Assembly (NCBI RefSeq): GCF_023502235.1
Contig: NZ_JAMFLY010000001.1
Span: 682,001 to 746,000 of the forward strand
DNA length: 64,000 nt
From: Flagellimonas myxillae
Lineage (GTDB): Bacteria; Bacteroidota; Bacteroidia; Flavobacteriales; Flavobacteriaceae
Direction of reading: 5' to 3'
Shown: piece by piece, positions 11,848-64,000 of the stretch
Layout: every line of letters starts with the position of its first letter
Numbering within the stretch: position 1 is the first letter of the stretch
Position numbers and translations under genes: made by a program
Notes under the pieces: model-generated
Told to the model about the DNA's origin: nothing
Seen by the model: only the letters and a program-made list of their open reading frames with translations
The model's database searches: none

Positions 11848-12570
11848 TCAATATTTATGGACACTGCCAGAAACTGATTTCTTTGTATGTACCTTGGCAT
11901 CCCCGGTATAGGATATATCCGCTCCGCTACTTGCATCTGCGGTGAGCTTTTCTGACACATTTACCGAGATTCCAGAACCGCTGCTAGCGTCTGCGTTGCA
12001 GGTTTTTGCCAAAAGTTCCCGGGCACGGATATCAGCTCCGCTGCTGGCGTCTGCGTAAAGCGCCTCCACCGAACCGGATATTTTAATGTCCGCACCACTA
12101 CTTGCGTCTGCCGACACTTCGGAAGCAACAAGCTCAATAAGCAGGTCGGAACCACTGCTGGCGTCCAACTCCAATTTTTCGGACTCGATGACGTTCTGCG
12201 CGATAAGGTCGGCTCCACTTGAACTTTTTAAACCAGTTACCACAGGGAGGGAAACATATACTTTCTTAGTGGCCCTGCCAATGTTTTCAATGGCGTGTAT
12301 TCTTAGTTTTCCATCTCTGATATCGGTGCCAATAAGGTCGATGATGTTCTCGTCCGCTTCCACCGAAATACTGAAATCTTGGTCTTGGGTTACAAATACG
12401 TCCAAACCTTCCGAGGCGGAAACCACGGTGAAATCTCCTGTTACCTTGCGGGTTTCCTCCACTACTTGTCCATTACCTTTTTTACCGCTCCCAAAGTTGA
12501 TGTCCATCACACAGGAGGAGGCAAAAAGTGCCATTAAAACTGCGATTGCGATTCTTGCTAAAGTTGTCAT
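11848..12570 (-). CDS. DUF2807 (GIN-domain) lipoprotein with beta-helix repeats
   Basis: The 240-residue lipoprotein (signal ending LMALFASSC) belongs to the DUF2807 family, predicted to form a right-handed beta-helix. After residue about 120 the sequence is a run of imperfect repeats built on DASSGADI (LDASSGSDLLI, ADASSGADIKI, ADASSGADIRA, ADASSGSGISV, ADASSGADISY), spaced 19-20 residues, one helix turn each. The repeats are visible in the DNA too. Last gene of the padR-pspC-DUF2807 series; association with PspC and PadR is common in Flavobacteriia and suggests an envelope-related role. No enzymatic motif. Confidence 0.9.
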   Translation of the reverse strand: MTTLARIAIAVLMALFASSCVMDINFGSGKKGNGQVVEETRKVTGDFTVVSASEGLDVFVTQDQDFSISVEADENIIDLIGTDIRDGKLRIHAIENIGRATKKVYVSLPVVTGLKSSSGADLIAQNVIESEKLELDASSGSDLLIELVASEVSADASSGADIKISGSVEALYADASSGADIRARELLAKTCNADASSGSGISVNVSEKLTADASSGADISYTGDAKVHTKKSVSGSVHKY

Positions 12571-12653
12571 GATTGTTCTTTTTGATTGATTAAAATTCGT
12601 GTTTATGATTGTTGTTTTCTATTAAAGCATTCCCAATTGTCAAAAAATTGGAT

Positions 12654-14384
12654 TCAATTGTTGTTTTCCCCTGCTTTTATCTCCAGGCCGTCCTCGTCCA
12701 GTTTCATTTGGAACTGTTCGTTCCTGTCTTTGATGTTTATGTTCACCCCATCTTCATCGATAATGATCTTACCACCTTCCTCGGTCTCTTCCAATTCGGG
12801 TTCTTCGGGGCAATCCAAACATTTTAGTTCCCCATCTTCGCCCATTACCCAGGTATGGCCTATAATGTCACTTCGATAGTAATCCCTATCATTTTTGATT
12901 CCTCTGCCTACATGCCCCCTTGTGGATTCTTGGAATTGGACAAATTTGCCCTCCGGCAGGTAGATTGTCGAGGTAACTTCTTGGTTTCTGGCCTTGCTCG
13001 ATGTTGGAGTAGTCAAATAATCGTCCAGGATGATCTGATTGTCGGACAACTCATACCCATAACTGATTTGTTTGGCCCTCTCCCTTGCCGCCAAAGTGGT
13101 TCTTCCGTGCGAATCTTTCCTAACATTTAGGGAAACGATGCTGTCTTCGGCCTTTCTCAATCTAATGTCCACTTCGTCCGAGATTAGGATACGGGTATCG
13201 TTTTCATCATAGGTAAAGCGCATTCTTCCAAAGTGTACTTCTTCCATATTAAATTCCAATTCGGAGTCACGCATTTTTATGACCAAGGTATCTGAAGTGT
13301 TATCCGCCACTAGTTGCTCCCGAACATTTACACTTCCCACGTTGGTAAACTCAGCAGCCTGACGGATACCCAAAGCAAACAACGTACCGATGGAAATTAG
13401 CCATAATCCCAATAAGGAGAACTTGGCAATATTACCAATGGATTTCAGGTTGTTCACCAAGATTTTCAATCCCAAGTACATAAGGAAGAAGAAGGGGATG
13501 CCAATCGTGAAAAATATAAGGATGGACATGACCCAAACAGGAGTTCCTGTTGTACCGACAATTTCATAAAAGTCTACGCCGGGAATATGTACTGCATTGG
13601 AAATACCTACGGTAAACATGGCAATGAATAAACTGATCATGGCAGATGCCCCAATGATGATCAATAAAATCCCAATGAATTTGCCAATGATTTTAAAGAA
13701 GAACATAATAATGTCCCCTATTGTATCAAAAAAGGTCTTGGAGCCGCTCTTGACCTTGTTGCCCACTTTTTCGTAGTCAACATTTTTTACTTTGTCTGCA
13801 ACATCATCAAACCCCTCTTTAACTTTGCGTTCTATATTGCTGATGTTGATGGGCTCTCCCGACATATCCAGTTTTTGGGAGGTTGTAGTCGCTTCGGGAA
13901 CCAAAATCCAAAGTAGAATGTAGGCCACCAATCCAAAACCGCTGAAAATGGTCAAAATGATGAAGAGCAATCTAACCCAAAGGGCATCTATACCGAGGTA
14001 GTGCTCCAAACCGGCACAAACTCCACCAATGTACTTTTGGTCAATATCCCTGTACAATTTTTTAGTTCTGCGAGTGCCTTGTTCCTGCGATTTTCGTGGT
14101 TCATCTTCAAAGATGTCCTCGTCCACCATATAATCCTCGGGTTGTCCCATTATATTAATGACTTCATCCACTTCCTTTTGGGTAATGACCTGTCGCTCAT
14201 TTTCCATTTTTTCGAGGAAAAGCTCGGCCACCCGGGCTTCAATGTCGGCTATGATCTCGTCGCTACCCGCCGTCCCGGAAAAGGACCGTTTTATGGATTC
14301 CAGGTATCGCCTAAGCCTGTTATACGCCTCATCATCGATGTGAAACAGGGTATTTGCTAGATTTATATTTACTGTCTTGTTCAT
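12654..14384 (-). CDS. PspC-domain membrane protein
   Basis: The 576-residue membrane protein has an N-terminal helical region (NINLANTLFHIDDEAYNRL, typical of flavobacterial PspC proteins), the PspC domain at about residues 105-170 (RTKKLYRDIDQKYIGGVCAGLEHYLG followed by two membrane helices; the first 20 residues of this motif are the linker), a linker with helices, three or four further membrane segments around 220-350, and a C-terminal soluble domain ending in acidic, DUF-like beta strands. PspC proteins in proteobacteria regulate envelope stress responses; here the architecture is larger. It starts 8 bp after padR and precedes the DUF2807 gene, one operon. Confidence 0.9.
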   Translation of the reverse strand: MNKTVNINLANTLFHIDDEAYNRLRRYLESIKRSFSGTAGSDEIIADIEARVAELFLEKMENERQVITQKEVDEVINIMGQPEDYMVDEDIFEDEPRKSQEQGTRRTKKLYRDIDQKYIGGVCAGLEHYLGIDALWVRLLFIILTIFSGFGLVAYILLWILVPEATTTSQKLDMSGEPINISNIERKVKEGFDDVADKVKNVDYEKVGNKVKSGSKTFFDTIGDIIMFFFKIIGKFIGILLIIIGASAMISLFIAMFTVGISNAVHIPGVDFYEIVGTTGTPVWVMSILIFFTIGIPFFFLMYLGLKILVNNLKSIGNIAKFSLLGLWLISIGTLFALGIRQAAEFTNVGSVNVREQLVADNTSDTLVIKMRDSELEFNMEEVHFGRMRFTYDENDTRILISDEVDIRLRKAEDSIVSLNVRKDSHGRTTLAARERAKQISYGYELSDNQIILDDYLTTPTSSKARNQEVTSTIYLPEGKFVQFQESTRGHVGRGIKNDRDYYRSDIIGHTWVMGEDGELKCLDCPEEPELEETEEGGKIIIDEDGVNINIKDRNEQFQMKLDEDGLEIKAGENNN

Positions 14385-40653: not shown

Positions 40654-40760
40654 CTTTCCATATTTCGGCAATTCATCACCAAAAATCCACAACTGGGTAT
40701 ATAGGATTGGTGTTGGCTGGGTTTTGATGGCATTTTTGGACCATCAAACAACGAACAGTC

Positions 40761-42923
40761 ATGAAAAACCGAATCCTATTTTTCCTTTTTGTTATCCATC
40801 TAACTGCTTTGATGGGGCAGACCACAGTGTCTGGAACCGTTACGGATCATAAAAATGTCCCTATAGCAGGCGCCAATGTGTATTTGGAGGGAACTTATGA
40901 TGGAGGATCCACTGGAGAGGATGGCACTTTTGAATTTGAGACTACTGAAACCGGAACCCAAACCTTGGTCATTTCAATACTTTCCTATGACCCACATTAT
41001 GAGGTTGGGGACGTGTCCTATTTTAAAGACCTGACCATTGCATTACAGGAATCGATAAACGCCTTAACCGGAGTAACCCTTACTGCTGGGACCTTCGAAG
41101 CTGGGGACAATTCCAAAGTATCCGTTTTGAAGCCTTTGGACATCGTGACGACGGCAGGAGCCGCAGGGGATTTTGTGGCCGCTTTACAAACCTTGCCAGG
41201 AACCACCACCGTAAATGAAGATGGTCGCCTGTTTGTTAGGGGCGGGGAGGCCGGAGAGACCCAGGTATTTATAGATGGCCTTCGCGTTTTCCAACCCTTT
41301 AACGCCACGGCCAATAATATTCCAACCCGGGGTAGGTTTTCCCCATTTTTGTTCAAGGGAATAACCTTTAGCACCGGGGGGTATTCCGCGGAATACGGGC
41401 AGGCCTTGTCCAGCGTGCTGCTCTTGAACACCACGGACGTTCCCGTCCAGGATAAAACGGATATTTCTGTCATGTCCGTTGGTGGAGGCTTGGGGCACAC
41501 CAAAATTTGGGGCAATGAATCCTTGAGCATCAATACCAACTACATCAACCTGTCCCCCTATGAATCGTTGATTCCATCTACCCAAGGGGTGCGATGGAAT
41601 AGTCCTTACGAGTCCGTTTCCGGCGAAGCGGTCTTTCGGAGTAAGCGGGACAAAAGTATATTTAAGCTGTACACGGGTTTTAACCATGCGAAATTGGATA
41701 TTGAACAAGAAGACATCAACTTTGAGGACTTTGTTCGCTTTGGGTTGACCAACAACAACCTATATTTCAATTCTTCCTACAAATATTATTTCGACAATGA
41801 TTGGAGCCTTAGCACCGGAGGTGCCATTTCTTGGGACACCAATACTATTGGTCTGCAAGGGAATGCAATTGAAAACAAGGAAACTGCATCGCATTTTAAA
41901 GTAAAGGCCCGTAAGAACTTCAGCAGCAGGTTTAACCTGAATTTGGGCGCTGAATTCTTTACTACCAATTATGATGAGACGTTTTCGACTCCAGAAAACT
42001 TCTCTTTCGAAAATAAGATCAAAGACCGCTTATGGGCCGGATTTTCGGAAGCGGACATTTTCTTGAGCAACGCCTTTGCCATGAAATTGGGGGCTAGGGT
42101 GGAACACAGTTCGCTCTTAAATCAATTTGAGCTGATGCCCAGGGTTTCCTTGGCATACAAACCTGGTGACAAGGGGCAGTTCTCTCTTGCTTATGGCGAT
42201 TTTTATCAGAACCCGCTAGCCGAGGTGGCTAAATTTGGACAGGCCCTAGGGTCCGAAAAAACCTCCCATTACATCTTAAACTATCAACGAACAGGAGATG
42301 GGAAGACCTTTAGGGCCGAAGCGTATTACAAAGACTATGACAACCTCGTTAAATATGACACCGAGCTGCCTCAGTTCAACTCCAATTTTAATAACGCTGG
42401 AAGTGGATATGCCACTGGGTTGGATGTTTTCTGGAGGGATAACCAAAGCATTAGCCAACTGGATTACTGGATTTCATACTCCTATTTGAACACAGAAAGG
42501 GATTATCGAAATTTTTCGGAAAGGGCAACCCCAAACTTTGCCCCGGAACACAGTCTATCTGTAGTTACGAAATATTTTGTGACCAAATTGAGGTCCCAAA
42601 TAGGGATGTCGTATTCGTATGGTTCTGGAAGGCCCTATGATAATCCCAATACTCCGGATTTCTTGGCTGAAAAAACTAAGGCCTATAACAATTTAAGTTT
42701 CAATTGGGCCTACCTCATTGATCAACAGAAGATTCTCTACTTTTCTGTGAACAATGTGCTTGGGTTTAGAAATGTCAACAATTATCAATACTCGGACACC
42801 CCCAATGTAGATGGTATATTTGATAGACGGGCCATTACGCCCGCGGCGGACAGGTTCTTTTTTGTGGGGTTCTTTTGGACCATCAGTACCGATGGCCGAA
42901 GCAACCAATTGGACAACCTTTAG
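40761..42923 (+). CDS. TonB-dependent receptor with carboxypeptidase-regulatory-like domain
   Basis: The 720-residue outer-membrane receptor has a signal peptide ending ALMGQ, a carboxypeptidase-regulatory-like domain (about 22-95, VSGTVTDHKNVPIAGANVYL), a plug (about 105-220, with LQTLPGTTTVNEDGRLFVRG) and a barrel ending WTISTDGRSNQLDNL. It lacks the STN domain and no DUF4249 or SusD-like gene follows, unlike the other two receptors here. Ligand unknown. It converges on DoxX with 7 bp between stops. Confidence 0.9.
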   Translation: MKNRILFFLFVIHLTALMGQTTVSGTVTDHKNVPIAGANVYLEGTYDGGSTGEDGTFEFETTETGTQTLVISILSYDPHYEVGDVSYFKDLTIALQESINALTGVTLTAGTFEAGDNSKVSVLKPLDIVTTAGAAGDFVAALQTLPGTTTVNEDGRLFVRGGEAGETQVFIDGLRVFQPFNATANNIPTRGRFSPFLFKGITFSTGGYSAEYGQALSSVLLLNTTDVPVQDKTDISVMSVGGGLGHTKIWGNESLSINTNYINLSPYESLIPSTQGVRWNSPYESVSGEAVFRSKRDKSIFKLYTGFNHAKLDIEQEDINFEDFVRFGLTNNNLYFNSSYKYYFDNDWSLSTGGAISWDTNTIGLQGNAIENKETASHFKVKARKNFSSRFNLNLGAEFFTTNYDETFSTPENFSFENKIKDRLWAGFSEADIFLSNAFAMKLGARVEHSSLLNQFELMPRVSLAYKPGDKGQFSLAYGDFYQNPLAEVAKFGQALGSEKTSHYILNYQRTGDGKTFRAEAYYKDYDNLVKYDTELPQFNSNFNNAGSGYATGLDVFWRDNQSISQLDYWISYSYLNTERDYRNFSERATPNFAPEHSLSVVTKYFVTKLRSQIGMSYSYGSGRPYDNPNTPDFLAEKTKAYNNLSFNWAYLIDQQKILYFSVNNVLGFRNVNNYQYSDTPNVDGIFDRRAITPAADRFFFVGFFWTISTDGRSNQLDNL

Positions 42924-58386: not shown

Positions 58387-58550
58387 TTTTTATATTTCAA
58401 TTGGGATACCCGGTAGTTTTTTGGCTATCGGGTATTTTTTTGCCCAAAAGTTACAGTCCATCCCCAGATTCATACAATTGAGTCATTGTTTTTACACTTC
58501 AACCGGACTTAGGCCCAAATTTGGGCTGAGAATCATTAAAACGAAAAGTG

Positions 58551-58970
58551 ATGAAAGCAATAATCTTGAGTCTGGGGTTTGTCCTCTGTACATCCGTATT
58601 CGCCACAGCGCAATCAAAGGCAACGCTAAGGGTGCAAATCCAAGACATCGCAAGTGATGAGGGAACCTTAAAGGTTGGCCTCTACAATTCCGCCGAGAAA
58701 TGGTTGGAAGAGGTCTATATGGGCGAAAGCTCCGACATCAAAGATGGCCAATGTGAGGTTGTGTTTGAAAACCTGCCCTTTGGGACCTATGGCATCTCCG
58801 TGTATCACGACGAAAACAACAATGGAAAAATGGACAAATACTTGGGCTTTTTTCCGAAGGAAGACTACGCTTGTAGCAATCAGGCGCCTGCAAAATATGG
58901 CCCTCCGGAATGGAAGGATGCCAAATTTATCATCAATCAAAAAACGAATCAGCAACTCATAAAACTCTAA
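58551..58970 (+). CDS. DUF2141 secreted protein
   Basis: The 139-residue protein has a signal peptide ending VFATAQS and a DUF2141 domain (TLRVQIQDIASDEGTLKVGL, VFENLPFGTYGISVYHDENN, NGKMDKYLGFFPKEDYACSN). The DENNNGKMD stretch resembles an EF-hand-like Ca site. Starts at the ATG at 58551 (a GTG precedes it). First of a tight gene series that leads to the LytS-type kinase. Confidence 0.88.
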   Translation: MKAIILSLGFVLCTSVFATAQSKATLRVQIQDIASDEGTLKVGLYNSAEKWLEEVYMGESSDIKDGQCEVVFENLPFGTYGISVYHDENNNGKMDKYLGFFPKEDYACSNQAPAKYGPPEWKDAKFIINQKTNQQLIKL

Positions 58971-58975
58971 TCATC

Positions 58976-59599
58976 ATGAAAAAAATTATCGTACTTGTTA
59001 TTTTTTGTATTTCCGGTTTAACCCATGCCCAGGACAAATATTCCAAAGGGATGGAGAAAGCATTTCAACTGTGGGGTGAACAAAAGCCTACAGAGGCCTC
59101 CAATCTATTTGAACGAATCGCCATGGCAGAACAGGACAACTGGATTCCCCATTACTACGTGGCACATGTGAATGCCATTTCTTCCTTTGGCGAAAAGGAT
59201 TTTGAAAAGCTGTCCAAACAATTGGAAAAGGCGAAGGAGTTTTTGGATTTGGCCAAGGCAATTTCAGAAAACAATCCAGAGTTAATGGTGCTCGAAGCTT
59301 TGATAAACACAGCATGGATTGCCTATGACGGTGCCACCTATGGAATGACACTTTCAGGAAAGAATTTTCAGTTGTATGAACAAGCGATGGCCATGTCACC
59401 CGAAAATCCAAGGGTAGTGTTGGCCAAGGCGGAATGGGAAATGGGAAGTGCCAGGTATTTTGGTAAGGACGTTTCTCCCTACTATAAAGATATTGAACGC
59501 TCCTTGGAACTTTTTGCTAATTTTAGCAACGACACCCCTTTTCACCCATCTTGGGGAAAGGATAGGGCAGAAGCATTATTAAAGCAACGCAGTGAATGA
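58976..59599 (+). CDS. Secreted TPR-like protein
   Basis: The 207-residue protein begins at the ATG at 58976 just before its signal peptide (IVLVIFCISGLTHAQ), 5 bp after the DUF2141 stop. The body is helical with TPR-like repeats (FQLWGEQKPTEASNLFERIA, EFLDLAKAISENNPELMVLE, NFQLYEQAMAMSPENPRVVL). Its stop overlaps the start of the kinase (ATGA), suggesting coupling; it could be the periplasmic partner of the kinase. Confidence 0.86.
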   Translation: MKKIIVLVIFCISGLTHAQDKYSKGMEKAFQLWGEQKPTEASNLFERIAMAEQDNWIPHYYVAHVNAISSFGEKDFEKLSKQLEKAKEFLDLAKAISENNPELMVLEALINTAWIAYDGATYGMTLSGKNFQLYEQAMAMSPENPRVVLAKAEWEMGSARYFGKDVSPYYKDIERSLELFANFSNDTPFHPSWGKDRAEALLKQRSE

Positions 59600-60939
59600 A
59601 ATTTACCTCAAAATATATCGGCAGATTATTGGCTGTATCGATTTTGATCGGAATCCTGATCGCAGGTATATTTATTGGACTTAGAGCACTTTCTGGAAGA
59701 TCGGTATCTTTTGATATTGACCTTCTACGAGAAATAGGATATAATGTTTTCTATTCTATCGTCTTAGGGCTGATCAATGGGATTTTTTACGATTATTTAA
59801 ATCACAAAGTGGTTTGGAAACGATACGGAAAGTATCGTCTGCTAATAGGCGGTCTTGGGAGTGTGGCGCTTACCATGTTGGGGATTTTTTGGATACGGAT
59901 CGTAATCAATCTGGGTTTTGAAGGAGAGTCTTGGGAGGAATTCATAGCAGGGGAAAGGGCGATTTACTATGCGGTTGCTCTGCTTATTACCTTGGTTATT
60001 TCCGTGTTTTTCCATGCATTTTACTTTTATAGGAGTTGGCAGGAAAAAAAGGTCAAGGAACAGAAGATCATTGCAGGAACGGCATCCGCGCGTTTTGACG
60101 CCCTGAAGAATCAACTTGATCCCCATTTCTTGTTCAACAGTCTAAATGTTTTGACGAGTTTGATCGAGGAAGACCCCGACCAGGCGCAACGGTTTACGAC
60201 CTCACTTTCAAAAGTCTATCGCTATGTGCTGGAACAGAAGAACAAGGATTTGGTTACTGTGGATGAGGAGCTCAACTTCGCCCGGACCTATGTACGTTTG
60301 TTGAAAATGCGGTTTGAGGATAGCATTGTCTTTGAGATTCCTGAAAAAAGCAGTGTTCCTGACGCCAAAATTGTTCCGCTGTCCCTTCAATTGTTATTGG
60401 AAAATGCAGTGAAGCACAACGTGGTCACCGCTGCCAAACCCCTACATATACATGTGGAAGAAAAGAACGGAATGCTTGTGGTCCGCAATAACCTTCAGGA
60501 GAAGCAAGTGGTCAAAAAAAGTAGTGGGGTCGGTCTACAGAACATTAAACAACGCTATGGGATTTTGACGGATAGAGCTGTGGAAATTGAAAAAAACCAT
60601 TCCCAATTTAGCGTGACATTGCCCATTTTGACCCAACAAGTGAGCGTGGTAGAAACGCAGCAAAGTTATATTGCCGAGAAACGATATCTAAAGGCCAAAG
60701 AGCGCGTAAAGGCGATTAAAGACTTTTATTCCAACCTTACAGCCTATTGTATTGTTATTCCTTTTCTATGGTGGCTCAATTTTAGGACCACGGATTTCCT
60801 ATGGGCCTTCTTTCCCACCTTCGGTTGGGGGATTGGGGTATTGGTCCATGGTATGGAAGCCCACGGATACAACCCACTTTGGGGCAAACGATGGGAGGAG
60901 CGAAAAATCCAGGAACTTATGGACAAGGAAGATTTTTAG
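59596..60939 (+). CDS. LytS-type histidine kinase with C-terminal 2TM domain
   Basis: The 447-residue sensor kinase has four N-terminal membrane segments (about 10-145), a His_kinase domain with His177 (QLDPHFLFNSLNVLTSLIEE), and a HATPase (LLLENAVKHNV, GVGLQNIKQRYGI). At about 360-447 a 2TM domain follows (YLKAKERVKAIKDFYSNLTA, WGIGVLVHGMEAHGYNPLWG), like the separate 2TM proteins encoded next. Such a kinase-2TM fusion is unusual to me. Paired regulator: the LytTR gene at 62419. Confidence 0.9.
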   Translation: MKFTSKYIGRLLAVSILIGILIAGIFIGLRALSGRSVSFDIDLLREIGYNVFYSIVLGLINGIFYDYLNHKVVWKRYGKYRLLIGGLGSVALTMLGIFWIRIVINLGFEGESWEEFIAGERAIYYAVALLITLVISVFFHAFYFYRSWQEKKVKEQKIIAGTASARFDALKNQLDPHFLFNSLNVLTSLIEEDPDQAQRFTTSLSKVYRYVLEQKNKDLVTVDEELNFARTYVRLLKMRFEDSIVFEIPEKSSVPDAKIVPLSLQLLLENAVKHNVVTAAKPLHIHVEEKNGMLVVRNNLQEKQVVKKSSGVGLQNIKQRYGILTDRAVEIEKNHSQFSVTLPILTQQVSVVETQQSYIAEKRYLKAKERVKAIKDFYSNLTAYCIVIPFLWWLNFRTTDFLWAFFPTFGWGIGVLVHGMEAHGYNPLWGKRWEERKIQELMDKEDF

Positions 60940-60979
60940 GTTTTGTGGAGCACAGTTCACGGCGTACCACGCAGTTATC

Positions 60980-61015
60980 AGTCTTGGGTCTAATGTCTTA
61001 AGTCTAACATCTATC
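60980..61015 (-). repeat. Degenerate heptanucleotide repeat, inverse of 25211-25238
   Basis: On the + strand AGTCTTG, GGTCTAA, TGTCTTA, AGTCTAA, CATCTATC run in 7-bp steps; the reverse complement reads as TTAGACT, TAAGACA, TTAGACC, CAAGACT, matching the units near 25211. It lies between the kinase and the first 2TM gene. Confidence 0.75.
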
Positions 61016-61131
61016 GCCCAACAACTCATCCCATAAAAACTACAATTGGATCCACCTCTTTTTTATTACCCCCGTTTGATACCGAAATTTGAATTGTAAT
61101 TAGAAACAAGTCAAACTAAAAAATAAAGAAA

Positions 61132-61410
61132 ATGGAAATCACCAACGATATCAAATACCAAAGGGCAAAGGAAAAGGTGGAATGCCTTAAGAGCTTTTAT
61201 TCCAATTTATTGGCCTATTGTTTGGTCATTCCCTTTCTGGCCTATATCAATTATATGACCACCAGTTTTCTGTGGGTCGTTTTTCCTGCCATAGGCTGGG
61301 GGATAGGGCTAACATTGCACTGGATCAATGCAACCGGCAACCATCCTTTTTTGGGAAAGGACTGGGAAGAACGTAAAATCCGGGAGTATATGAACAAGAA
61401 CGAATACTAA
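61132..61410 (+). CDS. 2TM-domain protein 1
   Basis: The 92-residue membrane protein has the 2TM pattern: YQRAKEKVECLKSFYSNLLA, two helices around FLAYINYMTTSFLWVVFPAI, then GWGIGLTLHWINATGNHPFL and GKDWEERKIREYMNKNEY. The C-terminal GKxWEERKIxxxM signature is shared by all members here. It follows the kinase gene after a 192-bp gap with the heptamer repeat. Confidence 0.88.
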   Translation: MEITNDIKYQRAKEKVECLKSFYSNLLAYCLVIPFLAYINYMTTSFLWVVFPAIGWGIGLTLHWINATGNHPFLGKDWEERKIREYMNKNEY

Positions 61411-61451
61411 CGAATCCGTATCTTTAAATACCTGTCTTAACACCAACTAAA

Positions 61452-61754
61452 ATGGAAAATCCAACTAAGGAAAGTAAGTATATAAGAGCCAAGGAGCGTG
61501 TAGAGGAGCTTAAAAAATTCTACGGGAATCTTTGGTCATATATAGTCGTTATCTCGGCGCTGGCAGTAATCAATTATTTAACCAATGAATTTAGGTATAT
61601 GTGGTTTTTATGGGCCGCATTTGGGTGGGGGATTGGACTTTTCTTCCACGCTTTGAGGACATTTAACTTGAATCCTTTCTTTGGAAAAAGCTGGGAGGAA
61701 CGCAAAATAAAGGAGATAATGGAAGAGGATGAGAACACTAATAAATGGACATGA
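61452..61754 (+). CDS. 2TM-domain protein 2
   Basis: The 100-residue membrane protein: YIRAKERVEELKKFYGNLWS, helices with VISALAVINYLTNEFRYMWF, then GWGIGLFFHALRTFNLNPFF and GKSWEERKIKEIMEEDENTN. It has the same signature as its neighbours. Confidence 0.88.
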   Translation: MENPTKESKYIRAKERVEELKKFYGNLWSYIVVISALAVINYLTNEFRYMWFLWAAFGWGIGLFFHALRTFNLNPFFGKSWEERKIKEIMEEDENTNKWT

Positions 61755-62062
61755 TCATGGAACACTTGGATCAAGAAAAATACAATAGGGCCAAAAAGAA
61801 AATCGAGGAAATCAAGGGCTTTTACATTCACCTTTTGATTTTTGTGGTCATCAACACCTTCATTTTGGTAAACATCTACCTGAATTCGGATAACTTTTGG
61901 CAATGGCCACACTTTGTCGCCTTTTTCGGCTGGGGTGTAGGGCTGTTGATCCATGCGGGTAAAACTTTCGGGTTTATTCTATTTTTTGGCAAGGACTGGG
62001 AAGAACGACAGATTCAGAAGTACATTGAGAAGGATAAAAAGGAAATGGATAAATACCGATAA
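61745..62062 (+). CDS. 2TM-domain protein 3
   Basis: The 105-residue membrane protein: YNRAKKKIEEIKGFYIHLLI, helices, FFGWGVGLLIHAGKTFGFIL and GKDWEERQIQKYIEKDKKEM. The start overlaps the end of the previous gene by 10 bp (several nearby ATGs at 61745, 61751, 61757; 61751 makes ATGA). Confidence 0.85.
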   Translation: MDMIMEHLDQEKYNRAKKKIEEIKGFYIHLLIFVVINTFILVNIYLNSDNFWQWPHFVAFFGWGVGLLIHAGKTFGFILFFGKDWEERQIQKYIEKDKKEMDKYR

Positions 62063-62397
62063 TGGAACCAACCCAAGTTCGACTGGAAAAAGCGCAGCAA
62101 AGGATACGGAAAATCCGAAGGTTTTATACCCATCTTGCAATATTTCTCGTGGTCAACATCATTTTGTATCTAGTAAAGGCAGATACAATGGCGCTGATCA
62201 TCGAGGAAACCGGCATACACGAAATAGGCTTTGTCAACTATTTGCACTGGCAATTTTGGACCATAACACTTAGTTGGGTCATTATTTTGCTGGTTCAAGG
62301 ATTGCAACTATTTGGTCGGCCCCTTATTGCCAAATGGGAACAACGAAAAATTAAAGAACTCATGGATAAGGAGGATCAAGACTTTCAATCCAATTAA
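62062..62397 (+). CDS. 2TM-domain protein 4
   Basis: The 111-residue membrane protein is the most divergent: RLEKAQQRIRKIRRFYTHLA, two helices, VNYLHWQFWTITLSWVIILL, then AKWEQRKIKELMDKEDQDF, where the GK before W is replaced by AK. Its ATG overlaps the previous stop (TAATG). Followed 21 bp later by the LytTR regulator. Confidence 0.85.
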   Translation: MEPTQVRLEKAQQRIRKIRRFYTHLAIFLVVNIILYLVKADTMALIIEETGIHEIGFVNYLHWQFWTITLSWVIILLVQGLQLFGRPLIAKWEQRKIKELMDKEDQDFQSN

Positions 62398-62418
62398 CCG
62401 CACAAGATTTAACATCAC

Positions 62419-63174
62419 ATGAACGTAATCATAATTGAAGATGAAAAACCGGCAGCACGAAGACTGAGCAGATTGCTATCCAACCTAAATGTTAGCGTTT
62501 CTACCATGTTGCATTCCGTTGAGGAGTCCATCGAATGGTTTCGGAACAATCCACACCCCGATTTAATATTTCTGGACATCCAATTGTCGGATGGTCTGTC
62601 CTTTGAAATTTTCGACGACATCGAGGTAAAAAGTGCCATCATTTTTACCACCGCTTACGATGAATATGTCCTTCAAGCTTTTAAGCTAAATAGCATTGAT
62701 TATTTGTTAAAACCAATAGACGAAGAAGAGCTGGAAAGTGCGGTGAAAAAGTACCGGAATTTTATGCCCAGTGAACAAAAAATTTCGATGGATTTTGACG
62801 ACATAAAAAAGCTGTTGGGAAATCCCTTGGAACGGGAATACAAAAAAAGGTTCACGGTGAAAGTGGGGCAACATCTTAAAATAATAAATGCGGATGAGGT
62901 CGAATGTTTTTATAGTGAGAACAAGGGAACTTATGCCGCTACCACCGAAGGTCGAAATTATTTGTTGGACACCACATTGGAACATTTGGAAGATGAGCTT
63001 TCTCCCAAGTTATTTTTTAGGGTCAGCCGAAAGTTTTACGTGAACGTAAACCACATCAAAGATATCATTTCCTATACCAATTCTAGGCTTCAGATCAAAC
63101 TAAATCGCTATAATGAGCAAGAAATCATTGTAAGTAGGGAACGTGTGAAGGACTTTAAGTTATGGTTGGAATAG
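62419..63174 (+). CDS. LytTR-type response regulator
   Basis: The 251-residue regulator has a receiver domain with Asp53 (DLIFLDIQLSDG) and Asp9/Asp10-type acidic pocket (IIEDEKPAARR), and a C-terminal LytTR DNA-binding domain (about 145-250, KIINADEVECFYSENKGTYA and LSPKLFFRVSRKFYVNVNHI). It is the likely partner of the LytS-type kinase at 59596 and probably regulates the operon. A terminator follows. Confidence 0.95.
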   Translation: MNVIIIEDEKPAARRLSRLLSNLNVSVSTMLHSVEESIEWFRNNPHPDLIFLDIQLSDGLSFEIFDDIEVKSAIIFTTAYDEYVLQAFKLNSIDYLLKPIDEEELESAVKKYRNFMPSEQKISMDFDDIKKLLGNPLEREYKKRFTVKVGQHLKIINADEVECFYSENKGTYAATTEGRNYLLDTTLEHLEDELSPKLFFRVSRKFYVNVNHIKDIISYTNSRLQIKLNRYNEQEIIVSRERVKDFKLWLE

Positions 63175-63265: not shown

Positions 63266-64000
63266 CTAATTTTCTTCAATACGGTTGTCATCAAAAGCAG
63301 AAGGAAGAAGTTTTGGTATCAGCTTGATGAAAATGGGTAAAAGTACTGCTCCCCCAGGCAGCATAAATATCGCCAACGAAGGTACGCTTTTGAAAATATC
63401 CAAGAGCTGGTTTTGTACTTTTTTCTTTTCCTCGGCACTTAATTCCTTGACGGTTGATTTGGATAAAAGGGTTACCAATTCTTTACTTTCAGTCAGCTCT
63501 TTTTTGAGCCGCTTGCTATTTCGCAAAATTAATTTACTCACATTTTTGGACATCCCATCATAGAATTGTGAGGCCAGATTTTTGTCATTCAAATAAGAAA
63601 CTTTATCCCTGTTTTTATCAAAAAAAATCACCACACTATCCAAGGCCGATTTTACGTCGTTTTTGACCTTTCCTAGATGAGATGCCAAGCTAAAAATATA
63701 ATCGTATTCTGAACGGTTCAAAGCTTGGTCTTCCCAAATGGTCAAACATGCCATATCCAGAAAATAATTCTTTTCTTCCTCGGTAAAATTATCGTCCAAA
63801 AGTTCCTGTTGCCCATCCCTAAAATTGGCTTGGTCAAAATCCACATAAGTAAGGGAAGAAGCCAAAAGTTGCACCAATTTGTCCTCCTTTTTGTCCGCTC
63901 CCTTCGAATTCAAGGTTTGTAAAGCGATGTTCATGGTGGCATATTCCAATTTTTGGGCATGTTCCATAATAGATGGATATCCTTTTAAGTATACTTTGAA
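63266..64000 (-). CDS. LETM1-like protein, 3' part
   Basis: The frame continues open to the right edge, past an internal ATG at 63967, so only the C-terminal part (about 245 residues) is in the window. The end, FKSVPSLAIFMLPGGAVLLP followed by FIKLIPKLLPSAFDDN, is the LETM1-type motif seen in flavobacterial LETM1-related (biofilm-associated) proteins. The upstream helical region (NYFLDMACLTIWEDQALNRS) is like those proteins. Function unknown. Confidence 0.75.
   Translation of the reverse strand, partial: FKVYLKGYPSIMEHAQKLEYATMNIALQTLNSKGADKKEDKLVQLLASSLTYVDFDQANFRDGQQELLDDNFTEEEKNYFLDMACLTIWEDQALNRSEYDYIFSLASHLGKVKNDVKSALDSVVIFFDKNRDKVSYLNDKNLASQFYDGMSKNVSKLILRNSKRLKKELTESKELVTLLSKSTVKELSAEEKKKVQNQLLDIFKSVPSLAIFMLPGGAVLLPIFIKLIPKLLPSAFDDNRIEEN

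Follow-up and report, generated by a model that had tools for sequence, protein, structure and literature searches.

LytS/LytTR two-component systems of the BtsS/BtsR and YpdA/YpdB type bind direct repeats. Here we describe a related locus in a 64,000-nucleotide stretch of DNA from the marine bacterium Flagellimonas myxillae (the window), which encodes a LytS-type histidine kinase, four small 2TM proteins, and a LytTR response regulator. As far as the consulted portions of the sources describe those systems, the locus shares with them a PF06580 kinase, a receiver-LytTR regulator, and a candidate direct-repeat site, whereas here the kinase ends in a 2TM domain, free 2TM proteins follow it, and the predicted targets are envelope genes. 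We know of no function assigned to the 2TM family, PF13239. All five 2TM units of the window belong to this already established Pfam family (63.3 to 104.6 bits against a curated cut-off of 24.8), a point overlooked in the first-pass annotation; the two types of unit, the repeat, and the partnership with the kinase are described below.

Two further systems are close in design. According to the excerpts consulted, MgrB is a regulator-controlled small membrane protein of 47 residues that acts back on the kinase PhoQ (PMC2789325, PMC8404706). A small membrane protein feeding back on its own kinase is also what we propose here; unlike MgrB, the small proteins are relatives of a kinase domain and stand in arrays, and their feedback is predicted only. 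The HdrRM and BrsRM LytTR Regulatory Systems consist, in the part of the source consulted, of two genes, a regulator and a membrane inhibitor, without a kinase (PMC6193735). They likewise place a LytTR regulator beside membrane proteins and direct repeats upstream of a promoter, whereas here the regulator has a receiver domain and the operon has a kinase. In contrast to the phage shock protein (PSP)/Lia envelope stress system, the operon lacks PspA and PspC/LiaF, since none of its eight scanned proteins matched these families at E up to 1, and a PspC-family gene occurs only beside the predicted DUF2807 target.

The open-licence literature yielded neither an experimental function for PF13239 2TM nor a study of a 2TM-kinase/LytTR system. 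In the parts seen, a Riemerella two-component system with TonB receptors was of another type (OmpR/BaeS) and was dropped, the "2TM domain" of PMC9425974 was DUF4191, and the 2TM mentions in PMC11237479 belonged to other contexts. As far as the literature was searched, the division of the units into two types, the arrangement of repeat and promoter, and the envelope regulon predicted below are new.

We propose, with a probability of about 0.6, that the locus encodes an autoregulated envelope-type LytS/LytTR system that induces small membrane subunits related to its kinase, and that these subunits feed back on the kinase. Control of its own small membrane proteins along with envelope genes would be a new way to tune a bacterial sensor, and with feedback from the subunits, a two-component system would alter the make-up of its own receptor.

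Conservation of the locus and of a direct repeat with a 21-bp period

The main set comprised 81 loci, the window and 80 others chosen because a 2TM match sat in a kinase-size frame (75 from a 119-genome sample of the family, Flavobacteriaceae, and five from order and phylum samples), the fused kinase thus being present by selection. Free 2TM frames were found downstream of the fused kinase in all 81 loci, with one to seven frames in 23, 25, 19, 10, 1, 2, and 1 loci, respectively. The corresponding domain counts were 22, 25, 20, 10, 1, 2, and 1, with short frames of 57 and 62 residues (L053, L081) included in the comparison; the two counts differ because the second 2TM of L091 lies within its kinase frame and a single frame of L102 holds two. 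Since one to seven frames occur across genera, the four free units of the window are not a special number. A regulator match lay downstream, inside the stretch, in 78 of the 81 loci. Relatives of the TPR-like protein were detected with phmmer in 58/81 loci and those of the DUF2141 protein in 21/81, both lower bounds because single-sequence searches were run over short flanks. The order of kinase-2TM, 2TM array, and LytTR gene, often with a TPR-like and sometimes with a DUF2141 gene ahead, is conserved.

A named set, the best 80 of 575 loci from a kinase-alignment search, includes Allomuricauda, Flagellimonas, Maribacter, Winogradskyella, Arenibacter, and Flavobacterium; it contained the fusion in 80/80 (expected from the query), a free unit on the kinase strand in 78/80, and a regulator match in 76/80. 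The system was confirmed in 75 of the 119 sampled genera of the family, and at least one 2TM match was present in 110 of the 119 family genomes, with 2TM found in 31/148 genomes across the phylum (own family counted). The window operon is a widespread, conserved family arrangement with a catalogued domain and not a unique one.

The genome itself holds six 2TM matches, five in the window operon and one whose frame shares 4 bases with a dihydrofolate reductase gene. Five to seven matches were found in 34 of the 35 other genus genomes (six in 27 of these), and the lone exception, with one match, is 75% complete. Because the units belong to one curated family and their number is kept in this way, the tandem run is more than chance. 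These counts bear on the reading that 2TM serves as a generic membrane anchor, with an array that arose by largely neutral tandem duplication. Varying 2TM counts would agree with it, as would the fusions of 2TM to dihydrofolate reductase seen in two genomes and the one fusion to a helix-turn-helix domain. The persistence of five to seven matches in the genus speaks against it, as do the cross-genus identities of 81% for window 2TM protein 2 and 80% for the kinase-fused domain (the five window units are 23-52% identical to one another) and the retention, in 78/81 loci, of a further unit with a histidine in the first transmembrane segment (TM1). We consider this reading very unlikely.

The kinase and the first free 2TM gene are separated by at least 60 bases in 29 loci. 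A repeat of the form tACAaTTCAtcc - 8 - tACAaTTggGtAa was found in 26 of these 29 gaps, in 25 of them with a period of 21 bp (9-bp cores 12 bp apart). When scored with a held-out position weight matrix (PWM), 25/29 gaps were better than all 200 shuffles. The full scan, which lets a site begin two bases before the gap, additionally recovered L046, L061, and L078, resulting in 28 of 29 loci; L042 is the only one of the 29 gaps without a site. In a motif-free test, matches of at least 8 in 9 bases occurred at period 21 in 10 loci, compared with 0-2 at the other periods from 12 to 31. The PWM trained solely on gap sites found a site upstream of the kinase in 79/81 loci, and operator 2 of the window scored 24.6 with it (21.0 held out) and 22.6 with the enlarged PWM. 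In Bacteroidetes, the -7 box has TTTG as its core. This tetranucleotide, presumed to belong to such a box here, stands at exactly +68 from the first base of the repeat in 92 of 111 sites (73/79 upstream, 19/29 gap, and 0/3 other sites), against a background of 0.94% per position. The candidate site is well supported as a conserved element, and the repeat with its fixed TTTG distance offers a concrete, testable regulon.

The regulator would be expected to bind these candidate operator repeats. In LytTR systems elsewhere, direct repeats are mostly 12 bp apart and often 10 bp upstream of the -35 element, as given in the consulted part of one source (PMC6193735), and the spacing and placement observed here fit an activator on that account. 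The same spacing of about 12 bp resembles the LytTR Regulatory Systems in the part of that source consulted (PMC6193735), and the regulator gene follows the array in 78/81 loci, which would also suit 2TM proteins that act on the LytTR regulator independently of the kinase, keeping it at the membrane or inhibiting it there like the inhibitors of those systems. Unlike in those systems, however, the regulator carries a receiver domain and the operon contains a kinase, and the shared domain sits on the kinase, not on the regulator; we consider such a role very unlikely.

Two types of 2TM unit and their link to the kinase

Because a tree of 277 units was poorly resolved (21 of 274 inner branches starred), it was rejected as a basis for typing, and clustering and anchor residues were used. 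Average-linkage clustering at a cut of 0.65 placed all 81 kinase-fused domains, 46/59 first units, and window proteins 1 and 2 in one group. Window protein 3 fell in the second group, together with 41/59 last and 21/22 single units; tightening the cut to 0.6 left only 26/59 last units in it. At the start of TM1, the first group mostly has FYxNL or FYxSL, and the second has FYxHL there and another His close to where TM2 ends. The TM1 His was present in 11/81 fused units, 55/59 last units, and 22/22 single-copy units, and all 22 single-copy free units had both His. Fisher's test of single against fused units gave 1.3e-14, a strength that is overstated because the genera are related. In the named loci, the fused frames carried N at the TM1 position in 62 cases, S in 13, and H in 5, with two unread (n=82). 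A further unit with both His was found in 76/81 loci. Judged from their sequences, the 2TM units fall into two types, H-type and N-type, and the five window units, which had been treated as equivalent, do not form one class. From this division follows a rule, open to test, on which 2TM would be the partner of the kinase.

Another family of the same class has 2TM in 10/61 genomes. There, the clear free units were His/His in 8/8 loci (L394-L401), and in 7/8 a kinase directly adjoined the 2TM frame, with the start of a regulator match coming next; the kinase frames of these seven loci had no 2TM profile match, that is, they were unfused. The identifiers L120 and L399 denote one and the same place. 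The repeat was present in 6/8 loci. Elsewhere, 5/14 sequences of other families and phyla had both His, as did 5/5 Flavobacteriaceae units that lie outside the operon; the His pair is common in 2TM, not universal. Within the main set, L091 has one natural kinase frame with two 2TM domains, and the 214-residue frame of L102 is a 2TM-2TM fusion. The simplest history may be that a His/His subunit stood beside an unfused kinase, a copy was fused, its first His was lost, and the array then grew in tandem.

In the main rival reading, the 2TM proteins are not modulators but outputs that stabilise the membrane or repair the envelope and are produced along with other envelope genes, and the kinase copy is only a membrane anchor. 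It would account for the array having its own repeat wherever a gap exists (28/29 loci), for the other predicted targets being envelope genes, and for a copy number of one to seven, as expected for effector dose. The 2TM frame beside an unfused kinase in 7/8 loci of the other family and the second 2TM fused to the kinase in one genus speak against it and point to work with the kinase. We hold the effector role to be possible and, on this evidence, unlikely. That the 2TM proteins are part of the kinase system, as the first-pass annotation had it, is well supported (81/81 loci, the shared repeat, the L091 and L102 fusions, and 7/8 loci of the other family); the physical assembly with the kinase, or the buffering of it, that was also suggested there would be a further, inferred step.

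In the feedback mechanism that we favor, the kinase, with four TM helices, would detect the state of the envelope or membrane, and the phosphorylated regulator would bind the repeats and activate. Newly made 2TM proteins would then insert beside the kinase, where a free unit may contact and pair with the kinase-fused 2TM, the core pair being an H-type free and an N-type fused unit. The paired proteins would tune kinase activity, most likely as feedback, and the response may be set by the number and type of free units. A more specific version assumes a mixed intramembrane sensor complex, in which the fused unit is a docking copy lacking the first His, the free H-type units provide the sensing site, and the subunit make-up is rewritten with each activation; perhaps the two His of the antiparallel TM hairpin hold haem, a metal, or a quinone-like ligand. 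We consider this version doubtful. If true, the bacterium would tune its receptor by inducing paralogous membrane subunits of that receptor.

The AlphaFold2 (AF2) model of protein 3, with a predicted local distance difference test (pLDDT) score of 87.5, has three helices: a long one (2-47), a second (54-75), and one at the terminus (84-104). The turn is about equally distant from His29 and His70, which may thus lie at matching depth in the hairpin. The protein rows of the alignment used for this model were picked for FYxH, so the invariance of His29 in it is by selection, which does not apply to His70. In the model of the kinase (pLDDT 85.4), four helices of membrane-spanning length at the N-terminus are joined by a kinase core that matches the GanS kinase domain (E 1e-8) and DesK; its 2TM part forms helices 354-398, 405-422, and 431-443. 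Hydropathy gave four N-terminal segments in the kinase and two per free protein, and the fused 2TM was not flagged. A profile search found no solved relatives of 2TM at E up to 1, and Foldseek returned no match to the 2TM model at E<=0.001, as expected for a helical hairpin.

Predicted envelope targets and points against the proposal

The scan for the repeat covered 1.264 Mb of the 3.94-Mb genome, made up of the window and a further 1.2 Mb of its contig. Five sites scored above 16, and false periods gave 0-4 such sites. Four of the five fall within window positions 12629-61053, in one 64-kb stretch: operators 1 and 2 of the operon, and one site each ahead of a TonB-dependent receptor gene and a DUF2807 (head GIN) gene (Table 1). 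On this basis, the predicted regulon looks clustered.

The two predicted targets were followed in 30 of 35 genus genomes and in the family. The family loci were 29 high-ranking ones per target, out of 73 other genomes that matched the receptor and 93 that matched DUF2807. In the genus, a site above 12 on the gene strand was found in 30/30 receptor loci and 30/30 DUF2807 loci (own genome counted). In the family, the numbers were 28/29 for the receptor and 20/29 for DUF2807; of 632 background stretches from these loci, some of which may hold real sites, 20 had one. For DUF2807 in the family, the better-scoring strand was used, and all 20 hits were on the gene strand. TTTG followed the receptor site at +68 in 29/29 genus and 25/28 family loci. 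In 58 of the 59 genomes with both coordinates (G082, with the receptor on another contig, was left out), the distance from the receptor to the kinase domain was at most 4 kb in 30 and at most 10 kb in 36, and the two were on different contigs in 10.

The DUF2807 gene is neighbored by a gene for a PspC-LiaF-Toastrack protein with a weak HAAS match (window 11848-14384 for the pair, minus strand). Because of this PspC/LiaF/Toastrack neighbor, the DUF2141 gene, and the receptor, the predicted targets suggest an envelope role. In 24/30 genus loci (L230, L233-L255), the opposite strand carries another site some 143-186 bases ahead of the receptor gene; it is absent in the window and suggests a divergent co-regulated gene.

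Several findings weigh against the proposal. A site above threshold was missing upstream of the kinase in 2/81 loci (L068, L111), and the repeat was absent in two of the eight loci of the other family (L395, L397). The kinase/2TM gap was shorter than 60 bp in 52/81 loci, with a gap site only at L066 among these, and therefore the array is usually without its own promoter in short-gap loci. The upstream site lay 80-200 bp before the next annotated gene in 54/79 cases; for the remaining sites, the next gene may be unannotated or its start misplaced. Activation, as opposed to repression, is a prediction from the layout described above. A simulated 1.2-Mb sequence gave one site above 16, which scored 23.1, so the scores of 20-22 for operator 2, the receptor, and DUF2807 are not beyond chance, and these sites rest on position and conservation instead of score. 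Nine of the 29 family DUF2807 loci had no site above threshold, and DUF2807 sites were mostly without TTTG at +68 (present in 5/29 genus and 5/20 family loci). The two types of unit blur at the edges, since 11/81 kinases carry the TM1 His, no further His/His unit was found in 5/81 loci, and the second His is missing from window protein 4. Additionally, the AF2 models of protein 3 and the kinase are single chains.

Operon features and neighboring genes

Rechecked open reading frames bore out the coordinates given earlier for the kinase, the four 2TM proteins, and the LytTR regulator, and the view that the five 2TM units, one fused behind the kinase and four free, are one family held for all of them. 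The operon extent of 59596-63174 was right for the genes listed, but the DUF2141 and TPR-like genes upstream had been overlooked, and the operon seems to start further upstream than the kinase; the stop codon of the TPR-like gene overlaps the kinase start. From kinase to regulator, the junctions are a 192-bp gap, a 41-bp gap, a 10-bp overlap, a 1-bp overlap, and a 21-bp gap, which bears out the description of three of the five as overlapping or close. The shared GK-x-WEERKI ending was found in the kinase and proteins 1 and 2; protein 3 has WEERQI, and protein 4 has a weaker form (KWEQRKI, without GK-x).

Table 1. Features of the window discussed in the text (positions counted from its first base; operators are candidate sites).
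Feature	Position	Strand	Evidence and remarks
DUF2807 (head GIN) protein, predicted target	11848..12570	-	PF10988 2.3e-42; adjoins PspC-family gene
Operator before DUF2807 gene	12629..12662	-	Score 20.1; 92 bp before start; without TTTG at +68
Operator before TonB-dependent receptor	40667..40700	+	Score 21.7; 94 bp before start; TTTG at +68
TonB-dependent receptor, predicted target	40761..42923	+	CarbopepD_reg_2 4.9e-14; Plug 2.9e-7
Operator 1	58452..58485	+	Period 21 bp; before DUF2141 gene; PWM score 31.5; TTTG at +68
DUF2141 protein	58548..58970	+	PF09912 6.7e-30; signal peptide judged by eye; presumed first operon gene
TPR-like protein	58973..59599	+	TPR_19 4.8e-5, 24 bits, just below the cut-off of 25; signal peptide judged by eye
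LytS-type histidine kinase, 447 residues	59596..60939	+	PF06580 His_kinase 5.3e-26; PF13239; C-terminal 2TM, N-type
Kinase-fused 2TM domain, residues 366-443	60691..60924	+	PF13239 2.9e-27
Operator 2, kinase/2TM-1 gap	61020..61053	+	Period-21 repeat; TTTG at +68
2TM protein 1, 92 residues, N-type	61132..61410	+	PF13239 8.6e-29; groups with kinase 2TMs in clustering
2TM protein 2, 100 residues, N-type	61452..61754	+	PF13239 2.8e-30
2TM protein 3, 105 residues, H-type (His29 TM1, His70 TM2)	61745..62062	+	PF13239 1e-23
2TM protein 4, 111 residues, divergent	62062..62397	+	PF13239 2.3e-17; TM1 His retained, TM2 His replaced by Gln
LytTR response regulator, 251 residues	62419..63174	+	Receiver PF00072 2.4e-14; LytTR PF04397 1.7e-21

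The kinase consists of four N-terminal TM helices, a phosphoacceptor region, the kinase core, and the C-terminal 2TM. The motif DPHFLFNSLN was invariant across 60 aligned kinases. No HATPase Pfam model matched the kinase at E up to 10, and the core was identified by structure instead.

Outside the operon, the 2TM frame of the own genome that overlaps the dihydrofolate reductase gene by 4 bases lies at L005:1240-2318. In-frame fusions of 2TM to dihydrofolate reductase (PF00186, E 8e-60 and 3e-56) were found at L133:3907-4824 and L134:3980-4846, and in the other family, an HTH_3 helix-turn-helix domain (9.5e-13) is fused to 2TM (8.2e-9) at L402:1225-1737. Downstream of the regulator, a gene for a LETM1-like protein (window 63266-63967, minus strand) converges on the operon, and opposite-strand relatives of it were observed in 44/81 loci.

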